Shown in pieces: positions 26,824 through 38,927 of a stretch of 42,589 bases of DNA. The notes beneath the pieces are model-generated. The model did no database searches, had not been told where the DNA came from, and saw nothing but the letters and a program-made list of their open reading frames with translations. The stretch lies in the NCBI GenBank assembly GCA_016871595.1, contig VHCY01000012.1, positions 1 through 42,589 on the forward strand, in the 5' to 3' direction. The position numbers and the translations under genes are program-made. This DNA comes from Verrucomicrobiota bacterium (lineage in GTDB: Bacteria; Verrucomicrobiota; Verrucomicrobiia; Opitutales; Opitutaceae). Numbering within the stretch: the stretch's first letter is position 1; each line of letters starts with the position of its first letter.

Positions 26824-27606
26824 TCAGAGCCGGTGCAGGTGGAACCCGCCGTCGACGTCGAAGGCGGAGCCGGTGGTGAACGGGAAGCGGTCCTCCGCGA
26901 TCGCGCGCACGGCCCGGCCCACGTCCTCCGGCTGGCCCCAGCGGCGGATGGGCGTGATGCCGCGCTCGTCCTGCAGGATCAGCTTATCGTACTTGGCCTT
27001 CACCCCGGCGGTGAGGTCGGTGGCGATCACGCCGGGGCGGATCTCGTACACGTTGATCCCCTCGGTGGCGAGGCGCTCGGCGAAGAGGCCCGTCATCATA
27101 CTCAGGCCGGCCTTGACCATACAGTAATCGCCGCGGTTCACCGAGGCGGTGTAGGCCGAGATGGACGAGATGTTCACGATCCGCCCGCGGAAGCCCTCGG
27201 CGTCGCGCTCCTGCGCCAGCATCCGGCGGGCGATCTGCTGGGTGAGGAGGAACGGGCCCTTGAGGTTGATCGCGAAGAGGCGGTCGAAGCTTTCCTCCGT
27301 GGACTCAAGCAGGTCCGCGCGCACGGTCGGGCCGACGCCCGCGTTGTTCACGAGCAGGTCGATCCGGCCGAGGCCCTCCGCGGCGGCGGCGACCAGACGC
27401 TCGCGGTCGGCGGCGCGAGACACGTCGCCCTGGGTGGTGAAGCCGTCCCCGCCGGCCGCCTGGACGAGCGCGAGGGCCTCGGCGGCGGCGGTGGCGTTGC
27501 CGGCGTAATTGATCATCACCCGGTAACCGCCCCGGGCGAGTTCGATGGCGATGGCGCGGCCGATGCCGCGGGAAGCTCCGGTGACGAGGGCGGTGCGGGT
27601 AGGCAT
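26824..27606 (-). CDS. Short-chain dehydrogenase/reductase (3-ketoacyl-ACP reductase-like)
   Basis: A 260-residue classical SDR. The cofactor motif is TGASRGIG (9-16) and NNAG lies at 87-90. The catalytic residues are Ser147/148 in [15 protein letters not shown], Tyr161 and Lys165 in [23 protein letters not shown] and the C-terminal [15 protein letters not shown] are typical of FabG-like enzymes annotated as 3-ketoacyl-ACP reductases. With no fatty-acid or polyketide genes nearby, the substrate is open. The ATG at 27606 fits the family. It follows the signalling operon by 47 bp on the same strand and could be read through from it, although an inverted repeat lies between. Confidence 0.9.
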
Positions 27607-27653: not shown

Positions 27654-30584
27654 TCAGGCCCGCGGCGCGGGCGCCTTGCCGAGGTGGGCGCGGATCTCGC
27701 CCAGCAGCTTCTCGGTGGTCATCGAATCGCGCTGGACGATGTTCTCCACGCAGGCGCGGAGGGTCTCGCGTTCGGCGGCGGTGAGCTCCTTGGCGGTCAC
27801 CACCACCACGGGCACGCCCCGCCCGTCCTCGCACGCCCGCAACTCGCGCAGGAACTCGAACCCGTCCATCCCCGGCATCATCAGGTCGAGCAGGATGAGC
27901 GCCGGGCGCTGGCGTCCGAACGCCTCCAGGCCGGTCCGGCCGTCGGTCGCCTCGGCGACCTGCCAGCCCTCGCGCTCGAGGGCGTGGCGCAGCACGGCGC
28001 GGTTGTCCGGCAGGTCATCGATCACCAGCGCCCGCGGCTCCTCCCCGCGCGACACGTGGCGGGCGAGGATCGCCGCGAGCTGGCCCCGGTCAATCGGCTT
28101 GGTCAGGTAATCGGCCGCCCCGAGGGCGAAGCCCAGCTGGCGGTCGTCCACGATCGAGATCATCACCACCGGGATGTCGCGGGTGGCCGGGTCGGCCTTG
28201 AGCGCGGTGAGGACGGACCAGCCGTCCATACTCGGCATCATCACGTCGAGGGTGATGAGGCGGGGCTTCAGTTCCCGGGCGAGGGCGAGGGCGTCGCGGC
28301 CGTTGCCCGCGGAACGCACCCGGCAGCCCTCGCGCACGAGGCTGCGGCTGATGATATCGACCACCGTGGGCTCGTCGTCGACCACCAGCACCAGCGGGGC
28401 GGAAGCGTCGCCGGCGGCCGCGACCGGCGCGGGCGGGGGCGGCTCTGCCGCGGGGGTCGGCGCCGGGGCCGGGTCGGTGACCTCGACGGGGACCAGCGCG
28501 GTGAAGACGGTGCCCTGGCCGGGCTGGCTGGTGACGAGGATGTCGCCGCCCATCAGCTGGCAGAACTTGCGGCTGATCGCCAGGCCGAGGCCGGTGCCGC
28601 CGTACTTGCGGGTGGTGGAGGCGTCCGCCTGCACGAACGCCCCGAAGAGTTTCCCCACCTGCTCGGGCGTCATCCCGATGCCCGTGTCCGTCACGCGGAA
28701 CGCGACGCAGGTGCGCCCCTCGTGGGTCGCGGGGGCGACCCCGAGGGTGATCCGGCCCTGATGGGTGAATTTCGCCGCGTTGCTGAGCAGGTTGAAGAGC
28801 GTCTGCCGGACCTTGGTCACGTCGGCCCGCATCCGGCCGACGGCGGGGTCGACCTCGACCGCGAGGGTGTTGCCGTTCTTGGCCACGAGGGGCTGCACGG
28901 TGGCCGCGGTCTCGGCGATCATCTCGGCGACGCCGAAGGCCTCCACGTAGAGGGTCATCTTACCGGCCTCGATCTTCGAGAGGTCGAGGACGTCGTTGAT
29001 GAGCCCGAGGAGGTGTTTGCCGGCGCCGTGGATCTTGCGCAGGTCGGGCAGGAAGGCGTCCTGGCCCGTGTCCTCAGCCTCCTCCATCAGCATCTCGCTG
29101 TAGCCGATGATGGCGTTCATCGGCGTGCGCAGCTCGTGGCTCATATTGGCGAGGAAGGCGCTCTTGGTCCGGTTGGCCTGCTCCGCCGCCTCCTGCGCGG
29201 CGCGCAGCTCGGCCTCCGCCTGCTTGCGGTGGGTGATGTCCGTCTGGACCACGATGTAGTTCCGGACTTCACCCTGCTCGTCCAAAATCGGCTGGCCGTC
29301 GGCGAGGATCCACACGGGGCGGCCGGACTTGTGGTAGTTGAGGATCTCGAGCTGGAAGCCGCGCCGCTCCTGCCGCGCCCGCTTCTTCTCCGCGAGCGTG
29401 GCCGGCGAGGTGTCCGGCCCCATCAGGAACTCGTCGGGGTGGCGGCCGAGTGCCTCCGTCTCGGGGTAGCCGGTGAGCCGGGTGAAGGCGTCGTTGATCC
29501 ACTCGATGCGGCCGGTCGACCCGGTGATGAGCACGCCGTTGTGGGTCCGGCTGGCGACTAGGGCTAGCTTGCGCGCTTCCTCGCGCAGGCGTTCCGCGGT
29601 GGTCAGGGCCTGCGAGAGCCGCCGGGCGAAGAACAGCCCGAGCCCGAGCGCGGCGAGGATCATCGGGCTCATAAAGCCGAAGACGGGCAGGACCTGGTCC
29701 CACGAGGCGCGGTCGATCTGCGCGAGGTCGACGCCCACCAGCAGGGTGAAGCCCCACTCGGGGAACAGTTCCTTGCGCCACGACCAGTCGCCCTCGACCC
29801 AGGTCGCCGCCGCGCCCGCCGCGCCAGCCCGCGCCGATTCCACCAGCCGCACCTTCGTGGTGGGCACGGGGAACAGGGGCTCGCCCCGCCGATCGAGCAG
29901 CGCGATCACGCTCTGGCCGAGCAGCTGCGCTTCCTCGAGCAGGCGGCCGACCTGCGAGATGGCCTCGATCGGGTAGCCCACGTAGAGCACCCCGATCACG
30001 GCGCCGGCCGCGTCGCGCACCGGCTCGTAACCGGTGAGGTAGGCGCGGCCGAGGATGTCGGCCACGCCGTAGTAGGCGTCGCCCCGCCGCAGCGCCGCCA
30101 TCGCCGGGCCCGCCGGATCGAGCACGGTCCCGATCGCGCGGTTGCCGTCGGCGCGCCGCACGTTGGTGGAGATGCGCACGAAGTCGTCGCCGTCCCGCGT
30201 GAAGAGGGTCGCGGTCCCGCCGACGAGGTCCACCGTGCGGTCGACGAGCGTGTTGCCGGCTGCACCCCGAAGGTTGCCGAAACGGAGGTCGCGGACGGTC
30301 CTTGCCTCCACCACGACGGGATCACCGGCGGCCGCCGGGCCCTCCGCGGCCGCGAGTTGCCGCAGCACGCGCATCGAGGACTGCACCCGCTCGAGGTACA
30401 GGCTGCGCATCGTCCAGAGGGTCCGGCCGACCTCGGCCACCTGCTGGTCCACCTCCGCGTGGAGGGTGGTGCGGATCTCCTGGCGGAGCAGGCGGAAGCC
30501 GCCGGCGAGGCCGCCGCCGACCAGCGCGCAGAGGAGGAGGAAGCCGCCGAGGAAGCGGAGGTTGAAGGCGGTTTTCGGGGCCAT
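27654..30584 (-). CDS. Membrane hybrid sensor histidine kinase: Cache, PAS, HisKA, HATPase, two receiver domains
   Basis: A 976-residue protein, last gene of the signalling operon. Membrane helices at about 10-30 and 301-320 flank a periplasmic Cache_3/Cache_2-type sensor (about 35-295). Its segment [20 protein letters not shown] and [15 protein letters not shown] is typical of small-ligand Cache domains. A PAS domain follows (about 345-455, [19 protein letters not shown]). The DHp helix is [20 protein letters not shown] with phospho-acceptor H483. The HATPase has [16 protein letters not shown] and [11 protein letters not shown]. Receiver domains at about 731-845 and 851-965 carry phospho-acceptors D780 ([10 protein letters not shown]) and D900 ([10 protein letters not shown]). 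It can sense an extracytoplasmic ligand and feed a phosphorelay, plausibly to the response regulators encoded just upstream. Confidence 0.94.
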
Positions 30585-30607
30585 CGGGAAAGCGGCGCTG
30601 CCGGCCG

Positions 30608-32089
30608 TCAGAGGTCGAGGCGCATAATCGAGAAATCGTCGTCCAGCATCGTCGCGCCGCGCAGCGCGCGGGCGCGGGCGAGCAAGGCGGCCAGGTCCTC
30701 CGCGGCCGTACCCGCGGGTGGCGCCGTGAAGTGACGCTCAAAGTCCGCTGCCGGCCACATCTCGCCTGAGGGTAGGGTGATCTCGAAGGTGCCGTCGCTG
30801 ACCACGTAGAGCTGCGCTCCTGCAGGGAGCGTCCGCTCGATGGTCCGGTAGACGGTGCCGCTCATCCCGCCGAGGATCATCCCTGGGCCCCGCAGGCGCT
30901 CGACCTTCCGCTCCGCGCCCGCCGGCGTGGCGAGCAGCGCCGCGGGGTGCCCGGCGCTCGCGAGGCGCAAGCGGCGGGAGGAGGGCGACCAGACCCCGTA
31001 CCAGATGGTGAAGTACATCCCGTTCTGGTTCTCCATCAGGAAGACCTCGTTGAGGGCGGTGAGCACCGCGCCCGGGTCCCGGAAGTCAACGCCCGGGAGC
31101 GATCCGTGGCGGAGCACGTTGCCCGCCGTCACCGAGAGCAGGGCGGCGCCGACGCCGTGCCCGCAGACGTCGAGCAGGTAGATCGCGAGGTGGTCCGGAT
31201 CGATCCAGTGGTGGCCGAAGGCGTCGCCCCCGAGTTCCGTGGAGGGCACGAGCAGCCACTCCGAGCGCACCGGGCCCGAGGTGAGCGGCGGCGGCAAGAT
31301 CGAGCGGACGTAGTTCTCCGCCTCCTGCAGTTCCGCCTGCAGGCGCTGCTGGGTCTCCTCGATGGTGCGGACGTAGGCCCGCTCCTGGTCGCGGAACCGC
31401 TTCTTCTCGAGGCCGGCCCCGATCCGCGCGCGCAGCAGGGTCGGGTTGAAGGGCTTCGGGAGGTAATCCTCGGCCCCCCGCTCGATGCAGCGCACCACGC
31501 TCCCGAGCTCGTCGAGGGCGGAGATCATTATGACCGGCAGGTGGCTGAGCGCCGGGTCGGCCTTGATCTCGACCAGGGTGCCGTGGCCGTCGAGCACGGG
31601 CATCATCACGTCCAGCAGGACGAGGTCGTGGGGCGCGGCGCGCAGGCGTTCGAGGGCCTTGCGGCCGTCGCCGGCGACGGCGGTGGTGTGGCCCTGGCGC
31701 TCGAGCTGGCGGGCGAGCATATCCCGGTTCCCGGGCTGGTCGTCCACGACGAGGATCCGGCCGGTGATCGGGGCGCGCGCGTGCCCGGGGTCGGCGACCG
31801 GGGGTGCGGAACCGCCGGCCGGGGGCGCGGCCGGGGCCGCGGCGGCGGCGGTCGACGCCACGATCTCGCCCGCGAGCGTCACGCGCTCGTCGGTGAGGTT
31901 GCGGTTGATCAGGTCGAGCAGCTGGCGGGCGGCGCCGCGGATGCGCTCGAGGTCAGGCCCGTAGGCTGCGTGCCCGGCGTCGGCGGCCTCCTCGGCCAGC
32001 AGCTCGCTGTAGCCGATGATCTGGTTGAGGGGGGTCCGCAGGTCGTGCCGCAGGTGCGAGAGCGACGAGCGGTCGGTCGGGGCGGACAT
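30608..32089 (-). CDS. DHp-like / receiver / SpoIIE-type PP2C phosphatase response regulator
   Basis: A 493-residue cytoplasmic protein. Residues about 10-66 resemble a histidine-kinase DHp hairpin (LSHLRHDLRTPLNQIIGYSE, H15), but no ATPase domain follows. After an Ala/Pro linker comes a receiver domain (about 111-225) with D160 in LVLLDVMMPVLDG and K212 in YLPKPFNP. A coiled-coil signalling helix follows (about 226-262). The rest is a SpoIIE/RsbU-type PP2C phosphatase with STELGGDAFGHHWID, YLLDVCGHGVGAALLS, LASAGHPAALL and a C-terminal LDDDFSIMRLDL. Such proteins dephosphorylate STAS anti-anti-sigma factors when the receiver is phosphorylated. Here the likely substrate is the STAS protein at 33165 or 35702. 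The ATG at 32089 begins directly before the DHp helix. Confidence 0.93.
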   Translation of the reverse strand: MSAPTDRSSLSHLRHDLRTPLNQIIGYSELLAEEAADAGHAAYGPDLERIRGAARQLLDLINRNLTDERVTLAGEIVASTAAAAAPAAPPAGGSAPPVADPGHARAPITGRILVVDDQPGNRDMLARQLERQGHTTAVAGDGRKALERLRAAPHDLVLLDVMMPVLDGHGTLVEIKADPALSHLPVIMISALDELGSVVRCIERGAEDYLPKPFNPTLLRARIGAGLEKKRFRDQERAYVRTIEETQQRLQAELQEAENYVRSILPPPLTSGPVRSEWLLVPSTELGGDAFGHHWIDPDHLAIYLLDVCGHGVGAALLSVTAGNVLRHGSLPGVDFRDPGAVLTALNEVFLMENQNGMYFTIWYGVWSPSSRRLRLASAGHPAALLATPAGAERKVERLRGPGMILGGMSGTVYRTIERTLPAGAQLYVVSDGTFEITLPSGEMWPAADFERHFTAPPAGTAAEDLAALLARARALRGATMLDDDFSIMRLDL

Positions 32090-32103
32090 CGGGCGGCGGC
32101 GCC

Positions 32104-32484
32104 TCAGGCCGCGGGGGTGCCCGGACCGGCGTATTTCTCGATCTTGGGCAGCAGCCGCGTGAGGTCGATCGGCTTGGTGTCGTAGTCGTCGCACCCGGCC
32201 GCGAGGGCCTGCTCGCGGTCGCCCGCCATCGCGTGGGCGGTCAGGGCGATCACGGGGATGGCCTTGGTCGCGGGATCCGCCTTGATGCGGCGGGTCGCCT
32301 CCCAGCCGTCGATCACCGGCAGGCTCATATCCATCAGGATCACGTTCGGCCGGGTCGTGCCGGCAAGGTCCACGCCCTGCTGGCCGTCGACGGCGATCAC
32401 GACCTCGTAGCCGCGGCGGAGGAGGCGCCGCGACAGCATGTCGCGGTTCATCTCATTGTCTTCGACGAGGAGGATCTTGGGCAT
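32104..32484 (-). CDS. Single-domain response regulator (CheY/DivK-like receiver)
   Basis: A 126-residue receiver with no output domain. Acidic pocket residues are in ILLVEDNEMNRDML, the phospho-acceptor is D52 in VILMDMSLPVIDGWEATRRI, the switch threonine is in IPVIALTAHAM and the lysine in DYDTKPIDLTRLL. The sequence resembles DivK-type shuttles and the receivers of hybrid kinases. It lies between the GPP34 gene (12 bp) and the phosphatase gene (14 bp). It may carry phosphate between the hybrid kinase and other partners, or compete for it. Confidence 0.93.
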   Translation of the reverse strand: MPKILLVEDNEMNRDMLSRRLLRRGYEVVIAVDGQQGVDLAGTTRPNVILMDMSLPVIDGWEATRRIKADPATKAIPVIALTAHAMAGDREQALAAGCDDYDTKPIDLTRLLPKIEKYAGPGTPAA

Positions 32485-32496
32485 CGGAGGGCGGGG

Positions 32497-33162
32497 TCAG
32501 AGGCGCATCGGCGAGGCGCCGAGGAGGGCCTTGCCAAGGGCGTCGATCGCGCGGGAGACCTCGCGGCCGACGAGGTCCAGCTTCGCGAGGGAGGCGAGGC
32601 GGTCGGCGCGGGCGTTGGACTCGGGCCCGCGGAAGATCACCGCGGCCAGCTGGCAGGCGCAGAGCAGGCTCAGCAGGGTCGCGTCGCGCGGGTCCGGCAG
32701 GTCGTCACCGAGGATGAGCGCCCGGAGGCGGGTGCGGACCTCGATCCGCTCGTGGTTGTCCACTGTCGGGTAGCGCCGTACGCCGAAGACCCAAAGCACC
32801 TTGCTCTCCTCGCGGCGCAGGATGCCGCGCTCCACCAGCCGGTCATCCGCCGCCGCCTCGAGCCAGGCGGAGCGCTGGGCGAGGATGCCGAGCCAGGAGC
32901 CCACCGGTTCCGGGGTCCGGTCCGCGGCGAGAACCTTCAGCACCTCGTCCAGAATTGGGTCCCCCGTGGGAGCCGTGCTGAGCACGGTCAGCGCGGCCGG
33001 GTCCGTGTCGATGCGGCCCAGATGAGAGAGATCACAGAGCGCGGCGCCGGCGAGGGCGTAGCTGAAGCCGAGGGTCGGCATCGGCAGGCGTTTGCCGGAG
33101 GCATCGTCGAGGGCGAGCAGCGCGATCTCCTCGACGAAGGTGAGCTGGAGGGAGGGGATCAT
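32497..33162 (-). CDS. GPP34 (GOLPH3/Vps74-family) protein
   Basis: A 221-residue helical protein with the GPP34 domain layout. It opens LTFVEEIALLALDDASGKRL, followed by YALAGAALCDLSHLGRIDTD, then GDPILDEVLKVLAAD. The middle has WLGILAQRSAWLEAAADDRL with VERGILRREESKVLWVFGVRRYP, and DLPDPRDATLLSLLCACQLA comes near the C-terminus. In eukaryotes GOLPH3/Vps74 binds phosphatidylinositol-4-phosphate and glycosyltransferase tails at the Golgi. Bacterial members are common in Actinobacteria and have no settled role. It is embedded between the STAS gene (2 bp away) and the response regulator, so a link to partner-switching output or to anionic membrane lipid is likely but unproven. Whether lipid-binding residues are kept cannot be judged without alignment. 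Confidence 0.82.
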   Translation of the reverse strand: MIPSLQLTFVEEIALLALDDASGKRLPMPTLGFSYALAGAALCDLSHLGRIDTDPAALTVLSTAPTGDPILDEVLKVLAADRTPEPVGSWLGILAQRSAWLEAAADDRLVERGILRREESKVLWVFGVRRYPTVDNHERIEVRTRLRALILGDDLPDPRDATLLSLLCACQLAAVIFRGPESNARADRLASLAKLDLVGREVSRAIDALGKALLGASPMRL

Positions 33163-33164
33163 CG

Positions 33165-33500
33165 TCAGGCGAGGCTGGCGGCGGCGGCGGCGGCCGAGGG
33201 GTGGACGGCCAGGACCTCAAGGAATCCGGACAACTCGAAGACCTCGTGCACCGGCGGGGTGAGGGCGGCGAACGCCGCGCGGCCGCCCGCGGACTTGAGC
33301 TTCTTCGCCCCGCCAAGGAATACCCGCAGACCGGCGCTGCTCACGTAGTTGAGCGCGGCGCAGTCGAGCACCACCTTGCGCGTGCCCGCCGCGACCAGGG
33401 CGTCCAAGCGCTGTTCCAGCTGGGGACTGGCGAGGCCGTCGAGGCGGCCCTGCAGGGCCAGCACCGTGATGTCGTTCTGGGTCGAGGCGGTGATTTCCAT
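33165..33500 (-). CDS. STAS-domain anti-anti-sigma factor
   Basis: A 111-residue single STAS domain (MEITASTQNDITVLALQGRL). The regulatory phosphorylation site is in YVSSAGLRVFLGG (Ser54/Ser55), the place where RsbW-type kinases phosphorylate RsbV/SpoIIAA. Unphosphorylated, it should bind the kinase encoded 5 bp upstream and free that kinase's other target; the SpoIIE-type phosphatase of the operon should reverse phosphorylation. It is followed after only 2 bp by the GPP34 gene. The assignment is secure by motif and context, while the final target of the switch is not encoded nearby. Confidence 0.93.
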   Translation of the reverse strand: MEITASTQNDITVLALQGRLDGLASPQLEQRLDALVAAGTRKVVLDCAALNYVSSAGLRVFLGGAKKLKSAGGRAAFAALTPPVHEVFELSGFLEVLAVHPSAAAAAASLA

Positions 33501-33505
33501 AGGGA

Positions 33506-33937
33506 TCAGGGGGCGGGTGGGGCGAGGGCGCGCGCGAGGGTGAGCACGTTGCGGCCATCCCGACGCTCGTAGGCCGCGGAGTCCATCAGCTTTTTCACGA
33601 GGTGCACCCCCAGCCCGCCGATGCCGCGCTCGGCTAGGGGCGCGTGGATGTCCACCTCCGCCCGGGCCAGGGGATCGTAGGCGGGGGCATCGTCGGTGAG
33701 CACGGCCGTCACCCGCCGCCCCTCGCGCCGCAGTTCCAGGGTGAAGGCGTGGCCGGGCCGCCCGCCGTAGCCGTGGGAGATGACGTTGGTGACGGCCTCC
33801 TCGAGCGCGAGCTGGAGGGCGTGGAGGTCGCGCGGCCCGGGTTCGAGGGGCCCGCAGAACGCCTCCACCGCGTCCGCCACGCGCGGGATCTCCTCGAGGG
33901 AGCTGGTGAGCGGGAGCAGTTGGACGGCCGGGGTCAT
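33506..33937 (-). CDS. RsbW/SpoIIAB-like serine kinase anti-sigma factor
   Basis: A 143-residue protein of the HATPase_c_2 family. The N box is LQLALEEAVTNVISHGY (E46, N51), the G1-type motif is LTDDAPAYDP and the G2-type loop is GIGGLGVHLVKKL. These are the ATP-binding features of GHKL serine kinases that phosphorylate STAS partners and sequester a sigma factor or another effector. It lies 3 bp after the ABC ATPase gene and 5 bp before the STAS gene. No sigma factor gene occurs in the window, so the sequestered target is either encoded elsewhere or is not a sigma factor. Confidence 0.93.
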   Translation of the reverse strand: MTPAVQLLPLTSSLEEIPRVADAVEAFCGPLEPGPRDLHALQLALEEAVTNVISHGYGGRPGHAFTLELRREGRRVTAVLTDDAPAYDPLARAEVDIHAPLAERGIGGLGVHLVKKLMDSAAYERRDGRNVLTLARALAPPAP

Positions 33938-33940
33938 CGT

Positions 33941-34753
33941 TCAGACGTAGAGGTCGCGCAGCATCGCGGCCGCGCCCTCGTCGAGCTGCTCGCGGCGGCG
34001 GATCTCGTCGAAGCGGTCGATCAGGTCCTCGGGCCGCAGGCGGCGCTTCTCGGCGCCCCGGAAGTCGTGCACCACCCGGCCCCGGTGCATCATCAGGATG
34101 CGGTCGCCGTAGGCCACCGCCTGCGCCATCGAGTGGGTCACCATCATCGTGGTGAGGCCGTCCCGCCGGATCACCTCGTCGGAGAGGGTGATGACCTGGT
34201 CGGCGCTCTTGGGGTCGAGCGCGGCGGTGTGCTCGTCGAGGAGGAGCAGGCGGGGGCGCAGCCAGGTCGCCATCAGCAGGGTGAGAGCCTGGCGCTGGCC
34301 GCCCGAGAGGGAGCCGATGGCGTTGTCGAGGCGGTCCTCGAGCCCCATCCGCAGCGCCGCGACGCGGTCCCGCAGGGGCCCCATCAGGTCCGGGGCGAGG
34401 GCCCAGCCGAGCCCGCGGGGCCGCCCACGACGGGCGGCGAGGGCGAAGTTCTCCGCGATCGACATCCCCGGCGCGGTGCCGCTGAACGGGTTCTGGAACA
34501 CCCGGCCGATCAGCCGCGCGCGCCGGTGCTCGGGCCAGCGGGTGACGTCGTGGCCGTCCAGGCGGATGCGGCCCTCGTCGAGAAGGAAGGAGCCGGCGAC
34601 CGCGTTGAGCAGGGTGGACTTGCCGGAGCCGTTGGTGCCGAGCACGACGACGAACGAGCCCTCCTCCAGCGTGACGTCCACGCCCTGGAGGGCGCGCACC
34701 TCGTTCACGGTGCCGGGGTTGAAGGTCTGGCGGAGGCCGTGGAGCTCGAGCAT
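33941..34753 (-). CDS. ABC transporter ATP-binding protein (TrpXYZ/branched-chain-like uptake family)
   Basis: A 270-residue ATPase. Walker A is GTNGSGKST (39-47), the signature LSGGQR lies at 149-154 and Walker B is LLLLDEHTAALD (D173/E174). The H-loop is in MMVTHSMAQAVAYGDRILMM. The extended C-terminus (DLIDRFDEIRRREQLDEGAA) is typical of ATPases paired with PF04392 substrate-binding proteins, such as the TrpXYZ tryptophan importer. It follows the permease gene by 5 bp. With the permease and the tandem binding protein it makes a complete importer; the imported compound is not identifiable, although amino acids or related aromatics are the known substrates of relatives. Confidence 0.93.
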   Translation of the reverse strand: MLELHGLRQTFNPGTVNEVRALQGVDVTLEEGSFVVVLGTNGSGKSTLLNAVAGSFLLDEGRIRLDGHDVTRWPEHRRARLIGRVFQNPFSGTAPGMSIAENFALAARRGRPRGLGWALAPDLMGPLRDRVAALRMGLEDRLDNAIGSLSGGQRQALTLLMATWLRPRLLLLDEHTAALDPKSADQVITLSDEVIRRDGLTTMMVTHSMAQAVAYGDRILMMHRGRVVHDFRGAEKRRLRPEDLIDRFDEIRRREQLDEGAAAMLRDLYV

Positions 34754-34758
34754 CGGGA

Positions 34759-35685
34759 TCAGGCGGCCGGCGCGCCGCCCCGCCGGCGGGCGAGGAAGCG
34801 CGGGAGGACCAGGGCGGAGAAGACGAAGAGGGCGGTGATGAGCTTGAGGTCGTTCGGGTTCAGGCCCCAGCGCAGGGCCACCGCGACCAGTAGGCGGAAC
34901 AGGACCGAGCCGAGCACCGCGCCGGCGAGCGCGAGGCCGAGGCTCCGCGAGCCGGTGAGGGCCTCGCCGATGATCACGCTCGCCAGCCCCCAGACGATCA
35001 TCCCGATGCCCATCTGCGCGTCCGCGAACCCCTGGTACTGCGCGAGGAGGGCGCCGGAGAGGGCGACCAGGCCGTTGGAGAGGGCGAGGCCGAGGATGGT
35101 GTAGCGGTCGACGTCGGCGCCCAGCGCCCGGACCATCTGCGGGTTGTCGCCCGTCGCCCGCATCGCCGTGCCGACGTCCGTCCGGAAGAACAGGTACAGC
35201 GTCACGCCCGCCGCGACCGCCGCGAGCAGCGCGAGGGCGAGGACGGCGAGGTCGCCCGGCGCCACCGGCCAGCCCAGCAGGTGCAGCGGCCCGGCGCCGA
35301 ACAACGCGTGCCCGAGGCGCTCGCCCTGGGTGGCGAAGGTGTTCGCCTGCAGCAGCGGCACGTTGCTCCGGCCCATCACGTGCAGGTTCACCGAATAGAG
35401 CGCGGTCATCACGAGGATGCCCGCGAGCAGGGCGTTGATCTTGAAGCGCGTGTGGATCACGCCGGCGAGGGCGCCCGCGGCCGCGCCGGCCAGGGCGCCG
35501 GCCCCCGTGGCAAGGATGGGCGACGTGCCCCCGACCAGCAGCACCGCCGCGACCGCCGCGCCGAGGGTGATCGAGCCGTCGGTGGTGATGTCCGGGATCG
35601 AGAAGATGCGGAACGAGACGTACACGCCCATCGCGAGGAGCGAGAGGATCAGGCCGAGGGTCAGCGCGCCGAGGAGGAGGGTCAT
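34759..35685 (-). CDS. ABC transporter permease (BPD_transp_2 family)
   Basis: A 308-residue, very hydrophobic inner-membrane protein with about eight to ten helices. Family-typical sections are VSFRIFSIPDITTDGSITLG near the N-terminus, GVIHTRFKINALLAGILVMT, and the cytoplasmic coupling loop FRTDVGTAMRATGDNPQMVR. ALSGALLAQYQGFADAQMGI and MIVWGLASVIIGEALTGSR follow. This is the LivH/LivM-like single-permease type seen in TrpXYZ systems, working as a homodimer. It lies 5 bp before the ATPase gene and 16 bp after the STAS-fusion gene. Confidence 0.92.
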   Translation of the reverse strand: MTLLLGALTLGLILSLLAMGVYVSFRIFSIPDITTDGSITLGAAVAAVLLVGGTSPILATGAGALAGAAAGALAGVIHTRFKINALLAGILVMTALYSVNLHVMGRSNVPLLQANTFATQGERLGHALFGAGPLHLLGWPVAPGDLAVLALALLAAVAAGVTLYLFFRTDVGTAMRATGDNPQMVRALGADVDRYTILGLALSNGLVALSGALLAQYQGFADAQMGIGMIVWGLASVIIGEALTGSRSLGLALAGAVLGSVLFRLLVAVALRWGLNPNDLKLITALFVFSALVLPRFLARRRGGAPAA

Positions 35686-35701
35686 CGCGGGACGGTTGGG
35701 T

Positions 35702-36922
35702 TCAGGCGGGATGGGCCGGGGCGCACCAGAGCGCGCCGCGCAGGAATTCGCTGTCGCCCGCGCCGCCGGGCCCCCGCGGATCGGCCAGCAGGTGCAGGAT
35801 CGCCTGCAGTCCCTGGCCGTCGAACAGTTCCCGCACCGTCGCCGCCAGCTCGATCGCGCCCTGCCGCACGGGGCGGTAGGGGAACACGGCCGCGTGGACG
35901 TGCGCGCGCAGGCCCTCCCCGCCGAGCGGCCGCAGCAGCGGGTCGAACGGTGTGCCCGGGCGCGCCACCACGCCCGCGAGCAGGGCGGTCGATTCGCGGA
36001 AGGAGCGCTCCGGCGTGAACGACAGCCAGTTCCGCACCGCCGGGAAGGCGAAGCGTTCCTCCGTGCCGGCCTCCGCCGCCGGCGAACGCCGGAGGGTGGC
36101 GCCGACCAGGCCCGCGGTCTCGACGGCGGCCACGAACGCCACCGCGGGCGCCGCGCCCAGCGTGAGGGCCTCGGCCGCCAGCGCCGCCAGCGGCACGGTC
36201 CGGCGGTCGCCCAGCGGGGTGAAGCGCGAGAGGAGGTTGAAGTCTCCCTCGCCGGCCAGACCGAGGAGCAGGTGCCCGGAGGGCTCGAGGCCGCGCTCCG
36301 TCACCAGGAAATCCGGTCGACCGGGCCCGTCCGTCGGCTGGTAGGCGGCGGCGCCGCCGGCGGCCAGCAGTTCCCCGAGCCGGCCGCGGCTGTCCGCCGC
36401 GTCGTGACCGAGCGCGCCCACGCCGAGGGCGAAGGTCCCGGGCCCGAAACGGGCCGGAAAAAGGGCCCCGGCGCCGCGTTGCAGCTGGGCCGCCTCGCCG
36501 GAGATCCGCACCCGCACGCCGCCCGGCCGGGCCCCGGCCACCGGGTGCAGCTCGTGCCGCGCCGCCGCACCCTCGTGCACGCGCCCGGGCGCCGGCCCCG
36601 CCGGGGCGGCCTCCGGCGCGGCCGCGGCGGAGATCAATTGCTCGAGGCCCGCCAGTTCCAGGACCTCGCGCACGGTCGCCGAGGGCGCCAGGATGCCGAA
36701 GCTGCCGCCGATGGCCTTCGCCTGCCGGTGCGCGGTGAGCAGGGTGCGCAGGCCGGCCGAACTGACGTAGCCCACGGCCGACATCTCGGCCCGCAGGTGG
36801 TGCTCGCCGTCCCGCACCGCCGCCTCCAGGGCGGTCGAGACGTGCCCGGCCCAGCTCGCGTCAAGCCGGCCCCGCAGGACGAGGACCAGCAGTTCGCCGC
36901 GCTTGTCGCGTTGGATGTCCAT
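35702..36922 (-). CDS. STAS domain fused to a large uncharacterised domain
   Basis: A 406-residue protein. Residues 1-112 are a STAS domain (MDIQRDKRGELLVLVLRGRL) with phospho-site motif VGYVSSAGLRTLL, the same YVSSAGLR as the separate STAS protein of this operon. After an Ala/Pro linker, residues about 130-406 form a globular region I cannot assign. Notable stretches are FALGVGALGHDAADSRGRLG, ELLAAGGAAAYQP, GDFNLLSRFTPLGDRRTVPL, AVAFVAAVETAGLVGATLRR, NWLSFTPERSFRESTALLAG and LRAHVHAAVFPYRPVRQGAI. No membrane segment or known catalytic motif is evident. It sits between the binding-protein gene (4 bp) and the permease gene (16 bp), so it may link transporter state to the RsbW-like kinase. The ATG at 36922 is the family-consistent start. 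Confidence 0.8.
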   Translation of the reverse strand: MDIQRDKRGELLVLVLRGRLDASWAGHVSTALEAAVRDGEHHLRAEMSAVGYVSSAGLRTLLTAHRQAKAIGGSFGILAPSATVREVLELAGLEQLISAAAAPEAAPAGPAPGRVHEGAAARHELHPVAGARPGGVRVRISGEAAQLQRGAGALFPARFGPGTFALGVGALGHDAADSRGRLGELLAAGGAAAYQPTDGPGRPDFLVTERGLEPSGHLLLGLAGEGDFNLLSRFTPLGDRRTVPLAALAAEALTLGAAPAVAFVAAVETAGLVGATLRRSPAAEAGTEERFAFPAVRNWLSFTPERSFRESTALLAGVVARPGTPFDPLLRPLGGEGLRAHVHAAVFPYRPVRQGAIELAATVRELFDGQGLQAILHLLADPRGPGGAGDSEFLRGALWCAPAHPA

Positions 36923-36926
36923 CGGT

Positions 36927-38927
36927 TCAGCGCTTCCCCTCGAGTTCGGCGATGAGCGCGGGGTCAAGGCTGAGCCCGAGCCGCGGGATCGCCTCGCGGC
37001 CGATCCGGATCTCGTTCACCGCCACGTTGGCCATCGGGATGCCGGCCGGGCTCTCGCCCCCGAGGACGCGGGCGAGGAGGGGCGCGGCCGCCTTGCCGCT
37101 GTGGTAGAAGCCGGGCCCGGCGCCCATCAGCGCGCCGCGGGCGGCGGCGTCCGGGTCCTCCGCGACCAGCGGCAGCCGCGCTTCCTGGCAGACCTTGCGG
37201 ATCCCGTCGTAGGCGAGGAAGGCCGTGTTGTCGCTCGTCAGGTAGAACACATCGACCTGGCGGGACACGATGCCCTGCGCGGCCTGCAGCACCTCGTTGG
37301 TGCTGGCGGCGGTCAGCTCCACCAGCTCGATCCCGCGGCGCCGGGTCGACTCGCGCAGCAGGCTGATGATCTTCACCGAGTTCGCCTCGCCGCTGTTGTA
37401 GACGGTGCCGATGCGGCGCACGGACGGCAGCAGGCGCGTCAGCGCCGCCACGATGTCCTCGACCGGCGTGAGCGAGCCGATCCCGGTCACGTGCGGCAGG
37501 TGGTCGGTGAAGGAGCGGCCGGCGCCGGCCGCGACGGGGTCGGTCACGTAGGTGAACACCACGGGCTTGGCGCGCGCCTGGAAGGAGGCCTGCAGGACGG
37601 GCGTCGAGAAGGGCACGATGACGTCGACCTCGGACGAATCGAAGTTGCGGATCATCGGGAGGATGTTGACCACCTCGCCCTGCGCGTGCTGGCGGACGAC
37701 GCGGAGGTTCTGCCCCTCGGTGAAGCCCAGCTCGCGGAGGCCGTCGAGCAGCCCCTTCTGGCAAAGGTCCAGCTGGGGGTCCGGGGCGAAGGCGGCGAAG
37801 CCGAGGGTGAAGGTGCGCCCGGCTGGCGGGGGAGGCGAGGCGGCGGGAGCAGCTGCCGTGGCGCGGGGCTGCTCGCGGCCCTGCTCGTCCAGGATCAGCT
37901 GCGCGCGGGCGACGAGGGCTGGCGGGAACGACCAACCCTCACGGAGGCCGGCGAGAGCCTGCCGGTTGAGGCAGAGGTTTTCCGCCATCAGGGGCCCGAC
38001 GGGGATGGTGGCGGGGCTGCGGCCGTTGAGCACCTCGCCGGCGAGCCGGCCGGTCTGCCGCCCGATCTCGAAGTAATCGGCGCCGAGGTCGAACAGGGTC
38101 CCCTTGCGCACGCTGGGCGGGGTGACGGTGAGGACGGGGATGCGGGCCTTGCGGGCGGCGGCGACGATGCCGTCGAGCGCCACCAGCACCGCGACATCGC
38201 CGGGCAGCCAGAGGGCGTCGACCCCGCGGGCGATCACCGCGGCGGCGGCCTCGGGGGCGGAGCTGGCGTTCTCGGCGTTGCCCTCCTCCAGCGTGATCCC
38301 GAGGGCGGCGCAGGTCGCGCGGGCCACCTTCATCTGGGCGAGCGAGTTGGGCTCCGCCGGGTTGAAGATCGCGCCGAGGCGGCGCAGGCCCGGATTCAGC
38401 TCGCGGGCGGTCCGCAGGCAGGCGTCCACCGGCTGCATCGTGGCGAAGCCGGTGAGGTGGGGTGGGTGGTCGAGGTGGTTCTCGCGGCTGATGCCGACCC
38501 CGGCCGCGTAGGGATCCGACACGAGGCCGAACACGTGGGGCGTCTTGCCGGCGCGGTTGGCGTTGGCCACCGCCTGCAGGGAGACCGTGGTGATGGTCAG
38601 CAGCAGGTCGTGGCCCCCCGCGGCCATCTGGCGGGCGATGGACTGCGCGACGTTGGCGTCGCCCTCCGCGTTGAAGAACCGGATCCGCGCGTTACGGCCC
38701 TGTTCCCAGCCCAGCTCGGCCAGCCCCTTCACCATCCCCTCGCGCCCGTCGTCGAGGATGCTCTGGGAGGCGTGTTGCAGGAGTGCGATGCTGACCTGCC
38801 GGCCGGGTTGGGCGCGCGCCTGCGCGGCGGCGTCGCGCCGCGAGCCAAGGTCCGATAGCAGGAGCACCGCCGAGGTGGCGGCGATCAGGAACAGGCCGAG
38901 GCTGAGGCGACGCAGGAAGACGGGCAT
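36927..38927 (-). CDS. Tandem ABC substrate-binding protein (two PF04392-type domains), membrane-anchored or exported
   Basis: A 666-residue protein and first gene of the ten-gene unit. An N-terminal hydrophobic segment (about 8-25, SLGLFLIAATSAVLLL) without lipobox is a signal peptide or anchor. Two complete TrpX-like binding domains follow, about 43-345 and 371-660, joined by an Ala/Pro linker (about 354-370). The hinge motif appears in both: LRRLGAIFNPAEPNSLAQMK and VRRIGTVYNSGEANSVKI. So do DHPPHLTGFATMQPVDACL versus HLPHVTGIGSLTPVEDIVAA, and DYFEIGRQTGRLAGEVLNG versus GFYHSGKAAAPLLARVLGG. Most relatives have one such domain. It should present one or two small ligands to the permease, or sense them for signalling. 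ATGs at 38951 and 38927 are both possible; I prefer 38927, just before the hydrophobic segment. Confidence 0.88.
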   Translation of the reverse strand: MPVFLRRLSLGLFLIAATSAVLLLSDLGSRRDAAAQARAQPGRQVSIALLQHASQSILDDGREGMVKGLAELGWEQGRNARIRFFNAEGDANVAQSIARQMAAGGHDLLLTITTVSLQAVANANRAGKTPHVFGLVSDPYAAGVGISRENHLDHPPHLTGFATMQPVDACLRTARELNPGLRRLGAIFNPAEPNSLAQMKVARATCAALGITLEEGNAENASSAPEAAAAVIARGVDALWLPGDVAVLVALDGIVAAARKARIPVLTVTPPSVRKGTLFDLGADYFEIGRQTGRLAGEVLNGRSPATIPVGPLMAENLCLNRQALAGLREGWSFPPALVARAQLILDEQGREQPRATAAAPAASPPPPAGRTFTLGFAAFAPDPQLDLCQKGLLDGLRELGFTEGQNLRVVRQHAQGEVVNILPMIRNFDSSEVDVIVPFSTPVLQASFQARAKPVVFTYVTDPVAAGAGRSFTDHLPHVTGIGSLTPVEDIVAALTRLLPSVRRIGTVYNSGEANSVKIISLLRESTRRRGIELVELTAASTNEVLQAAQGIVSRQVDVFYLTSDNTAFLAYDGIRKVCQEARLPLVAEDPDAAARGALMGAGPGFYHSGKAAAPLLARVLGGESPAGIPMANVAVNEIRIGREAIPRLGLSLDPALIAELEGKR

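Follow-up and report, generated by a model that had tools for sequence, protein, structure and literature searches.

Bacterial partner switching of the RsbU-RsbV-RsbW and SpoIIE-SpoIIAA-SpoIIAB kinds combines a HATPase_c_2 serine kinase, phospho-serine STAS proteins and a SpoIIE-type phosphatase, and in its classical form acts on a sigma factor. The same kinds of protein are encoded in a ten-gene unit at positions 27654-38927 of contig VHCY01000012.1, from a Verrucomicrobiota bacterium of the family Opitutaceae, where they stand among the genes for an ATP-binding cassette (ABC) importer and a GPP34 protein. All positions refer to the window, by which we mean the entire stretch of 42,589 nucleotides that was analysed. 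Unlike the described switches, this locus has one of its STAS domains fused to a metallo-decarboxylase-like fold inside the importer operon (the STAS-fusion protein, STASfus), and no SigB/SigF-type sigma factor was seen in the available genome assembly.

Two described transporters also resemble parts of the locus. In MlaFEDB, the STAS protein MlaB binds the ABC ATPase MlaF, and the accessible portion of one study places Thr52, at the STAS phospho-site, in the interface and reports that a phosphomimic weakens binding (PMC7367683). A STAS protein is encoded with an ABC ATPase in both systems, although ATPase binding has been demonstrated for MlaB and the likeness here is one of genes. In addition, the importer here is of the type with a binding protein and a PF02653 permease, its STAS domain is part of a two-domain protein, and genes for a candidate kinase and a candidate phosphatase lie alongside. 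TrpXYZ-type importers share with the locus a PF04392 binding protein, a PF02653-type permease and an ATPase, and all three families (PF04392, PF02653 and ABC_tran) are present in the window's operon. In contrast to TrpXYZ, there is an extra STASfus gene between the binding protein and the permease, and related loci carry one to four binding-protein copies per chain. The window's binding protein, whose relatives in the PDB are 3lkv, 6hni and 3lft, also misses the cut-off of the TrpX equivalog NF041285 (302.8 versus 390 bits, in two stretches of one protein).

Our analysis indicates that the locus represents a real, recurrent gene system that crosses phyla. Its parts are of known kinds, their combination is one that we have not found described, and it includes one unnamed domain family. 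Our searches of the open-access literature showed neither a description of an importer plus partner-switch unit nor a study that connects GPP34 of bacteria with STAS proteins or with import by ABC systems. The terms 'ABC transporter' and 'MlaB' likewise do not occur in the accessible portion of a review of STAS-only proteins (PMC8256260).

The unit lies entirely on the minus strand and is described here from 38927 towards 27654. Its first gene (36927-38927) encodes a tandem extracytoplasmic substrate-binding protein (SBP) with an N-terminal hydrophobic, signal-like stretch and two PF04392 domains (E = 2.3e-92). The STASfus gene follows (35702-36922), and then the genes for the importer permease (34759-35685; BPD_transp_2, PF02653, Pfam E = 3e-30) and the importer ATPase (33941-34753; ABC_tran, PF00005, Pfam E = 4.4e-27). 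The switch genes come next, encoding a serine kinase like RsbW and SpoIIAB (33506-33937; HATPase_c_2, Pfam E = 7.3e-24, with SpoIIAB matched in the PDB at 7.8e-6) and a stand-alone STAS protein, recognised by Pfam, that resembles RsbV and SpoIIAA (33165-33500). The GPP34 gene (32497-33162) separates them from three Pfam-supported phosphorelay genes: a single-domain receiver (32104-32484), whose phospho-acceptor Asp lies in the translated motif MDMSLP; a HisKA-receiver-SpoIIE/PP2C phosphatase protein in which no ATPase domain was found (30608-32089, with an in-frame ATG at 32089); and a Cache_3-PAS-HisKA-HATPase-REC-REC hybrid histidine kinase (27654-30584). The intergenic gaps are, in the same direction, 4, 16, 5, 3, 5, 2, 12, 14 and 23 bp. 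An earlier note on this DNA, made by a reader of the letters alone, had listed ten adjacent minus-strand genes with gaps of 2-23 bp and this domain order, and its list agrees with our coordinates, strands and Pfam assignments.

The window's genome is a 3.6 Mb assembly in 444 contigs, estimated to be 89.67% complete, and the closest named relatives at the locus are Opitutaceae/Opitutia metagenome bins of the Verrucomicrobiota. The ten-gene order is not due to chance, because the same gene set in the same order is found at four other loci (L087, L088, L089 and L090), whose STASfus proteins are 86-90% identical. At L089 the contig end truncates the hybrid kinase, which is the last gene, and the L088 binding protein has one PF04392 domain where the window's has two. 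Ratios of nonsynonymous to synonymous substitution rates (dN/dS) of 0.047-0.284 across all ten genes, measured against L087 and L090, indicate purifying selection. An S9 peptidase gene lies upstream of the unit in all four relatives, and a DUF1343 gene and a short-chain dehydrogenase gene lie downstream in L087 and L090. These common flanking genes therefore put the unit in one chromosomal place within this clade. Its distribution is patchy: the 17 listed genomes from the same genus or family all lack STASfus, and a match of any kind was found in 15 of the 188 genomes of the class.

More distant loci came from a scan with an alignment of 12 STASfus sequences, in which each species was represented by one genome. 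The scan gave 146 relatives, of which the best 80 were analysed as named loci, and counts per 80 therefore lean towards close relatives. At 70 of these loci the order SBP (one to four copies)-STASfus-permease-ATPase is found on one strand. Named strains that carry the core include Cerasicoccus frondis NBRC 105381 and C. maritimus NBRC 105382 (L094 and L098). Six of the ten exceptions (L093, L120, L126, L131, L132 and L162) are at contig ends and another, L145, is split by a stop codon, which leaves L108, L111 and L157. A permease is present in 79 loci, a binding protein in 76 and an ATPase in 75, and the permease adjoins STASfus in 79 of the 80. The binding-protein chain has one PF04392 copy in 22 loci, two in 34, three in 18 and four in 2, with none found in 4. 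Eight phyla appear among the labels (Verrucomicrobiota, Planctomycetota, Acidobacteriota, Pseudomonadota, Myxococcota, Thermodesulfobacteriota, Sumerlaeota and Lentisphaerota), some of which may be wrong, as nearly all loci come from metagenome bins. A search of the class gave 11 strong STASfus relatives besides the window's (E of 1.1e-45 or better), all in an importer operon, that of L056 being fragmented; weaker relatives lie mostly outside such operons. L056 and L145 are identical DNA, in which a TAG stop splits STASfus and the permease and ATPase are merged in one shortened frame, and this copy is decayed or misassembled.

The ten genes had been proposed to form a fixed unit. The four-gene importer core is indeed constant, whereas modules come and go around it, namely the RsbW/STAS genes, the phosphorelay with its Cache kinase and SpoIIE phosphatase, and GPP34. 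Independent movement of genes in related neighbourhoods, which the earlier note had named as evidence against a unit, was found in part for GPP34 and the phosphorelay, and not for the core.

The further proposal that importer and partner-switching genes belong together is borne out by recurrence across phyla, by a locus enriched in RsbW-type kinases and by parallel divergence. An RsbW-type kinase is found at 30 of the 80 loci, a SpoIIE phosphatase at 25 and both at 19. When only the 32 loci with long flanks are considered (at least 8 kb before and at least 6 kb after STASfus), the kinase is present at 19. The enrichment was calculated from 13 genomes, comprising the window's, the 11 with strong relatives in the class, and G238; G398, G399 and G400 were excluded because their loci had been chosen for gene content. 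Among the matches listed, 37 kinases of these genomes are high-scoring (above 60 bits, picked out by hand), and 11 of them, in 9 of the 13 genomes, fall inside the STASfus stretch where 0.14 would be expected, an enrichment of about 78-fold in a sample in which the window's genome (G000) and G238 were not chosen blind. In 9 of the 13 genomes the locus also figures, as identical DNA, in the set of 80, and the two counts are thus not independent.

Evolutionary distances between the proteins change in parallel. Those of STASfus correlate with those of the RsbW-type kinase at r = 0.845 (31 loci), the permease at 0.724 (80), the ATPase at 0.665 (76) and the SBP at 0.439 (77), and none of 500 shuffles reached the observed value for any of them. 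The kinase correlates with the permease at 0.766 and with the ATPase at 0.72. All of these values are inflated by relatedness and come from differing sets of loci (30-31 with RsbW, 76-80 without). Individual loci also show the association. At L134, labelled Planctomycetota, STAS and RsbW genes precede SBP2, STASfus, the permease and the ATPase, after which come a Cache kinase with two receivers, a receiver and a HisKA-REC-SpoIIE protein, the last architecture being confirmed by Pfam; these are the window's parts, rearranged and without GPP34. At L138 a receiver-SpoIIE phosphatase, in which profiles also detect a HisKA part, is followed by RsbW, STAS and then the core.

The STAS domain that the earlier note saw in STASfus occupies the first 100 residues and is recognised by Pfam. 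The C-terminal part of about 280 residues, which lay beyond that note's view, has no Pfam match and represents an unnamed, STAS-linked family with a putative metallo-fold. Pfam searches with 48 STASfus proteins returned STAS models and stray weak matches only (best 0.073; eight families at E up to 1). Neither PF03306 (acetolactate decarboxylase) nor PF08925 (DUF1907) is among the families matched by any of the 48 at that threshold. NCBIfam matches below 0.001 fall on STAS-type models (ant_ant_sig, spore_II_AA, the slr1659 superfamily and MlaB) and on a model for glutaminase, and show no family for the C-terminus, with match positions known for the window's STASfus only. The glutaminase model weakly matches the stand-alone STAS too. 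The MlaB model NF033618 (cut-off 90 bits) matches 25 of the 48 proteins at E up to 1, with a best value of 5.6e-7, and the window's protein is not among them. A search for PF08925, the PTD012 family, in 194 genomes of the phylum gave no match, but its controls gave none either. A frameshift as the origin of the C-terminus is ruled out, since this part is conserved in 47 relatives.

A structure predicted for STASfus from the 48 sequences has a mean predicted local distance difference test score (pLDDT) of 92. Foldseek matches its first domain to SpoIIAA/RsbV (E = 1.2e-6 and weaker), and its C-terminus to alpha-acetolactate decarboxylases (E from 1.3e-5, for 5yho, to 1.5e-4) and to human PTD012, also called C11orf54 (1xcr, 1.1e-4). 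As in proteins of the latter fold, STASfus has three conserved histidines, which include an HxH pair. STASfus differs from the decarboxylases in its attached STAS domain and in the position of the third histidine, which is 34 residues past the pair instead of about 11, and there is no significant sequence similarity. In the accessible portion of a commentary, PTD012 is described as binding zinc via three histidines, as structural kin of acetolactate decarboxylase, and as having been assigned as a beta-ketogulonate decarboxylase (PMC12435205). In the STASfus model, one strand carries His341-x-His343 and the following strand carries His377. All three are invariant in the 48 proteins, as are Glu184, Asp204, Arg297, Asp381 and Arg383. 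Metal binding and catalysis by this domain are predictions from the model.

Seven more distant relatives all keep the three histidines, Glu184 and Asp204. One of them, L061, is importer-linked and keeps Arg233, Arg297 and Asp381, residues that are not kept in the other six, none of which is the second gene of an importer operon. These six remote proteins, which combine STAS with an acetolactate-decarboxylase-like part and keep the serine as well as the histidines, are encoded at L062 (9137-10423), L063 (9590-10879), L064 (8539-10470), L065 (9198-10745), L066 (2571-3899) and L091 (4643-6295). The L066 protein is encoded in the window's own genome. The L091 copy, a 550-aa paralog, lies divergent beside an importer operon. 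At L062 its gene neighbours the same three kinds of gene as in the window, encoding a HisKA-REC-SpoIIE protein, a receiver and a Cache kinase, and the 20 kb examined there showed no importer.

Residues expected of a working switch are retained in the window. Its RsbW-like kinase scores 84.3 bits and, among the matches listed, is the sole high scorer in its genome, the four other HATPase_c_2 matches reaching at most 27.5 bits. Its sequence EEAVTN aligns with SEAVTN of SpoIIAB, and both Glu and Asn are thus retained in this nucleotide motif, which we take to be the N-box of HATPase_c_2 kinases. The stand-alone STAS exceeds the cut-off of TIGR00377 (74.7 versus 53.45 bits) and falls short of that of the SpoIIAA equivalog (54.7 versus 114.75). 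Its Ser55 aligns with the phospho-serine of SpoIIAA, presumably Ser58, the phosphorylated residue; PDB chain 1tid has Ala at this place, which is consistent with that residue being the phospho-site. STASfus carries Ser54-Ser55-x-Gly in 48 of 48 proteins, and its Ser55 aligns with the same serine. The phosphatase domain is of the SpoIIE type (PF07228, 3e-36), and the translations show that the receivers keep their Asp and the histidine kinase its His. Judged by these residues, the switch parts look active.

The window's GPP34 protein is well above the Pfam cut-off (157.8 versus 29.1 bits; E = 4.9e-46) and has the Golgi phosphoprotein 3 fold. It matches GOLPH3 at 2.1e-8 by sequence and, by a Foldseek search whose matches are 9qpq and 3kn1, at 3.1e-8 by model; the model is mediocre (pLDDT 73, from 7 sequences) and was used for fold only. 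The protein shares its Pfam family, its fold and a hydrophobic LWVF stretch at the membrane-hairpin place with GOLPH3/Vps74. It keeps none of four residues, W81, R90, R171 and R174, that bind phosphatidylinositol 4-phosphate (PI4P) in GOLPH3, as given in the accessible portion of PMC13408441. In a hand-read alignment they correspond to P29, A38, a gap and E102, and PI4P is therefore not the expected lipid. A further difference is the linkage or fusion to STAS at this and other loci, and we read GPP34 as a putative modular, membrane-recruiting domain.

GPP34 is an occasional addition to the core in four lineages. It is present at 6 of the 80 loci, namely L087-L090 and L096 (Verrucomicrobiota) and L101 (Bryobacterales, Acidobacteriota). 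On the STASfus tree, from which L145 was dropped and in which the row L091 is to be ignored as the remote 550-aa paralog by its long branch, its presence requires 4 changes (4-4 over the bootstrap range), some absences being short contigs. At E of 0.001 it occurs in 29 of 288 genomes of the window's phylum (27 over the cut-off) and in 21 of 199 Acidobacteriota genomes (19 over the cut-off). We inspected 36 neighbourhoods from the 39 matches in the window's phylum, leaving out G000 and the sub-cut-off G013 and G207, and 20 from the 48 in the Acidobacteriota. Four of the 36 encode STAS-GPP34 fusions: L074 (2377-3453, also supported by Pfam), L078 (3420-4451), L081 (9219-10268) and L171 (a 360-aa frame from 1739 on the minus strand). 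At L074 the fusion, a STAS protein, a Cache-SpoIIE-RsbW fusion and a core with four binding-protein copies lie within about 15 kb. A STAS or RsbW gene is immediately beside GPP34 at L069, L072 and L168, and some kb away at L082, L174, L179 and L182. The fusions hint that GPP34 partners STAS proteins. In the Acidobacteriota, 6 of the 20 GPP34 frames are long fusions (L231, 9647-11656; L232, 8366-10390; L237, 8226-10481; L238, 8290-10386; L239, 9659-11773; and L241, 3822-5843). GPP34 joined to cytochrome P450 is confirmed by Pfam in L231 and L241, and the other four were judged by eye.

From the observed parts, their linkage and the conserved sites, we propose a mechanism in which the contacts between proteins, the ligand, the way in which control runs and the part played by GPP34 are our own inferences. 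With a probability of roughly 0.45, the unit is a phospho-switchable ABC importer, and the transporter, with GPP34, takes the place of a sigma factor as the client of the switch. The tandem binding protein would capture a small, amino-acid-like solute for import by the permease and ATPase. STASfus would sit on the cytoplasmic side, its STAS domain docking on the ATPase when Ser55 is unphosphorylated, like MlaB on MlaF, and its three-histidine site could bind the solute that is taken up, or a product of it, or act on either. Phosphorylation of Ser55 in both STASfus and the stand-alone STAS by the RsbW-like kinase would uncouple the importer, and the Cache hybrid kinase, acting via the receiver or receivers, would control the SpoIIE phosphatase that resets both STAS proteins. 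GPP34 may serve as a peripheral membrane tether that recruits the STAS arm to a site close to the importer. A bolder and quite tentative formulation is that STASfus represents a novel class of subunit for ABC importers, a metallo-sensor switched by phosphorylation and possibly an enzyme acting on the imported solute. Through it a partner-switching kinase/phosphatase pair would gate a transporter and not a sigma factor, GPP34 would be the module that recruits to the membrane in bacteria, and the system would span at least five phyla.

The earlier note had also suggested that the RsbW-like kinase sequesters a target, and the genes present make a SigB/SigF-type sigma factor an improbable candidate for it. 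The 89.67% complete genome has a single Sigma70_r3 protein, a 646-aa frame that also holds the best Sigma70_r2 match and is taken to be RpoD; a SigB/SigF client is therefore not seen, and no SigB/SigF/FliA-type factor was found.

Several observations weigh against a phospho-switchable importer. Thirteen of the 32 long-flank loci have no RsbW-type kinase within reach, and the kinase is therefore encoded elsewhere or not obligatory. The target of STASfus may be RsbW and not the ATPase. The argument from sigma factors draws on an assembly about 90% complete, and with 18 Sigma70_r2 matches in the window's genome the client may be a sigma factor of another kind. No STAS or RsbW gene was found in the examined stretch of 25 of the 36 GPP34 neighbourhoods of the phylum. 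The structural matches of the STASfus C-terminus have modest TM-scores (0.54-0.65 by target for the decarboxylases and 0.48 for PTD012), and local alignment of its profile with that of acetolactate decarboxylase fell short of significance (P = 0.033, and 0.27 for a second decarboxylase-like group), where three negative controls gave P = 0.31-0.61 and a positive control between two decarboxylase-like groups 0.0021. A global alignment was useless. Sequence homology with acetolactate decarboxylase was rejected on this basis, and the likeness is therefore one of fold and of a matching histidine pattern. For the MlaB precedent itself, the accessible portion of the study leaves phosphorylation in cells open and reports Thr52Ala as non-functional (PMC7367683).

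In the chief rival explanation, which we consider doubtful, information flows in reverse. The importer and STASfus would act as a sensor: imported ligand on the C-terminal domain would free or tie up the STAS domain, a competitor of the stand-alone STAS for the kinase, and uptake would in this way report to an output such as GPP34 or another client. The gene order, RsbW enrichment and correlated distances fit this arrangement equally, as does a ligand- or metal-type site conserved in 48 of 48 proteins, and the kinase tracks STASfus (0.845) somewhat more closely than it tracks the permease (0.766) or the ATPase (0.72). A transporter-independent signalling protein would also be expected to occur as at L062, beside phosphorelay genes, and such importer-free forms may be under-counted in the best 80 of 146 relatives. 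However, a permease that adjoins STASfus at 79 of 80 loci is a better fit to a transporter subunit, and no single output gene is constant.

It is improbable that the genes are neighbours in expression only, with an importer that has a STAS-type stabilising subunit being co-transcribed with an unrelated Rsb/GPP34 signalling operon. The 13 long-flank loci without RsbW, the presence of GPP34 at just 6 of 80 loci and the variable order of the modules are as such an arrangement would have them, and GPP34 lies beside STAS or RsbW at L069, L072 and L168 with no importer in the examined stretch. Nevertheless, the roughly 78-fold enrichment of RsbW at the locus, the recurrence of the linkage over several phyla and the phospho-serine present in every STASfus protein argue against it. 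Classical partner switching, with the importer as input only and a kinase that binds a sigma factor encoded elsewhere, is very improbable despite the complete RsbW/STAS/SpoIIE set and the 18 Sigma70_r2 matches, given the lone Sigma70_r3 protein and a kinase that scores under the SpoIIAB/RsbW equivalog cut-offs (42.2 versus 135 bits and lower).

The unit may extend by one gene. A short-chain dehydrogenase/reductase gene (26824-27606, minus strand, 260 aa) starts 47 bp past the hybrid kinase gene and has counterparts downstream in L087 (96% identical) and L090 (92%), and it is therefore a possible eleventh gene. It was not found in L088 in the 1.1 kb past the kinase. A scan for promoters and terminators was uninformative, giving no promoter-like sites where 0.3 were expected and two terminator-like sites where 2.4 were expected.

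The importer together with STASfus may be an undescribed route that links uptake to signalling. The question of whether a STAS subunit of a transporter is phosphorylated, which the accessible portion of the MlaB study leaves open (PMC7367683), becomes directly testable here, because a candidate kinase and phosphatase adjoin the STAS-bearing importer gene in several phyla. In addition, the system points to a client of partner switching that is not a sigma factor, to an unnamed STAS-linked family with a putative metallo-fold, and to a role for bacterial GPP34.

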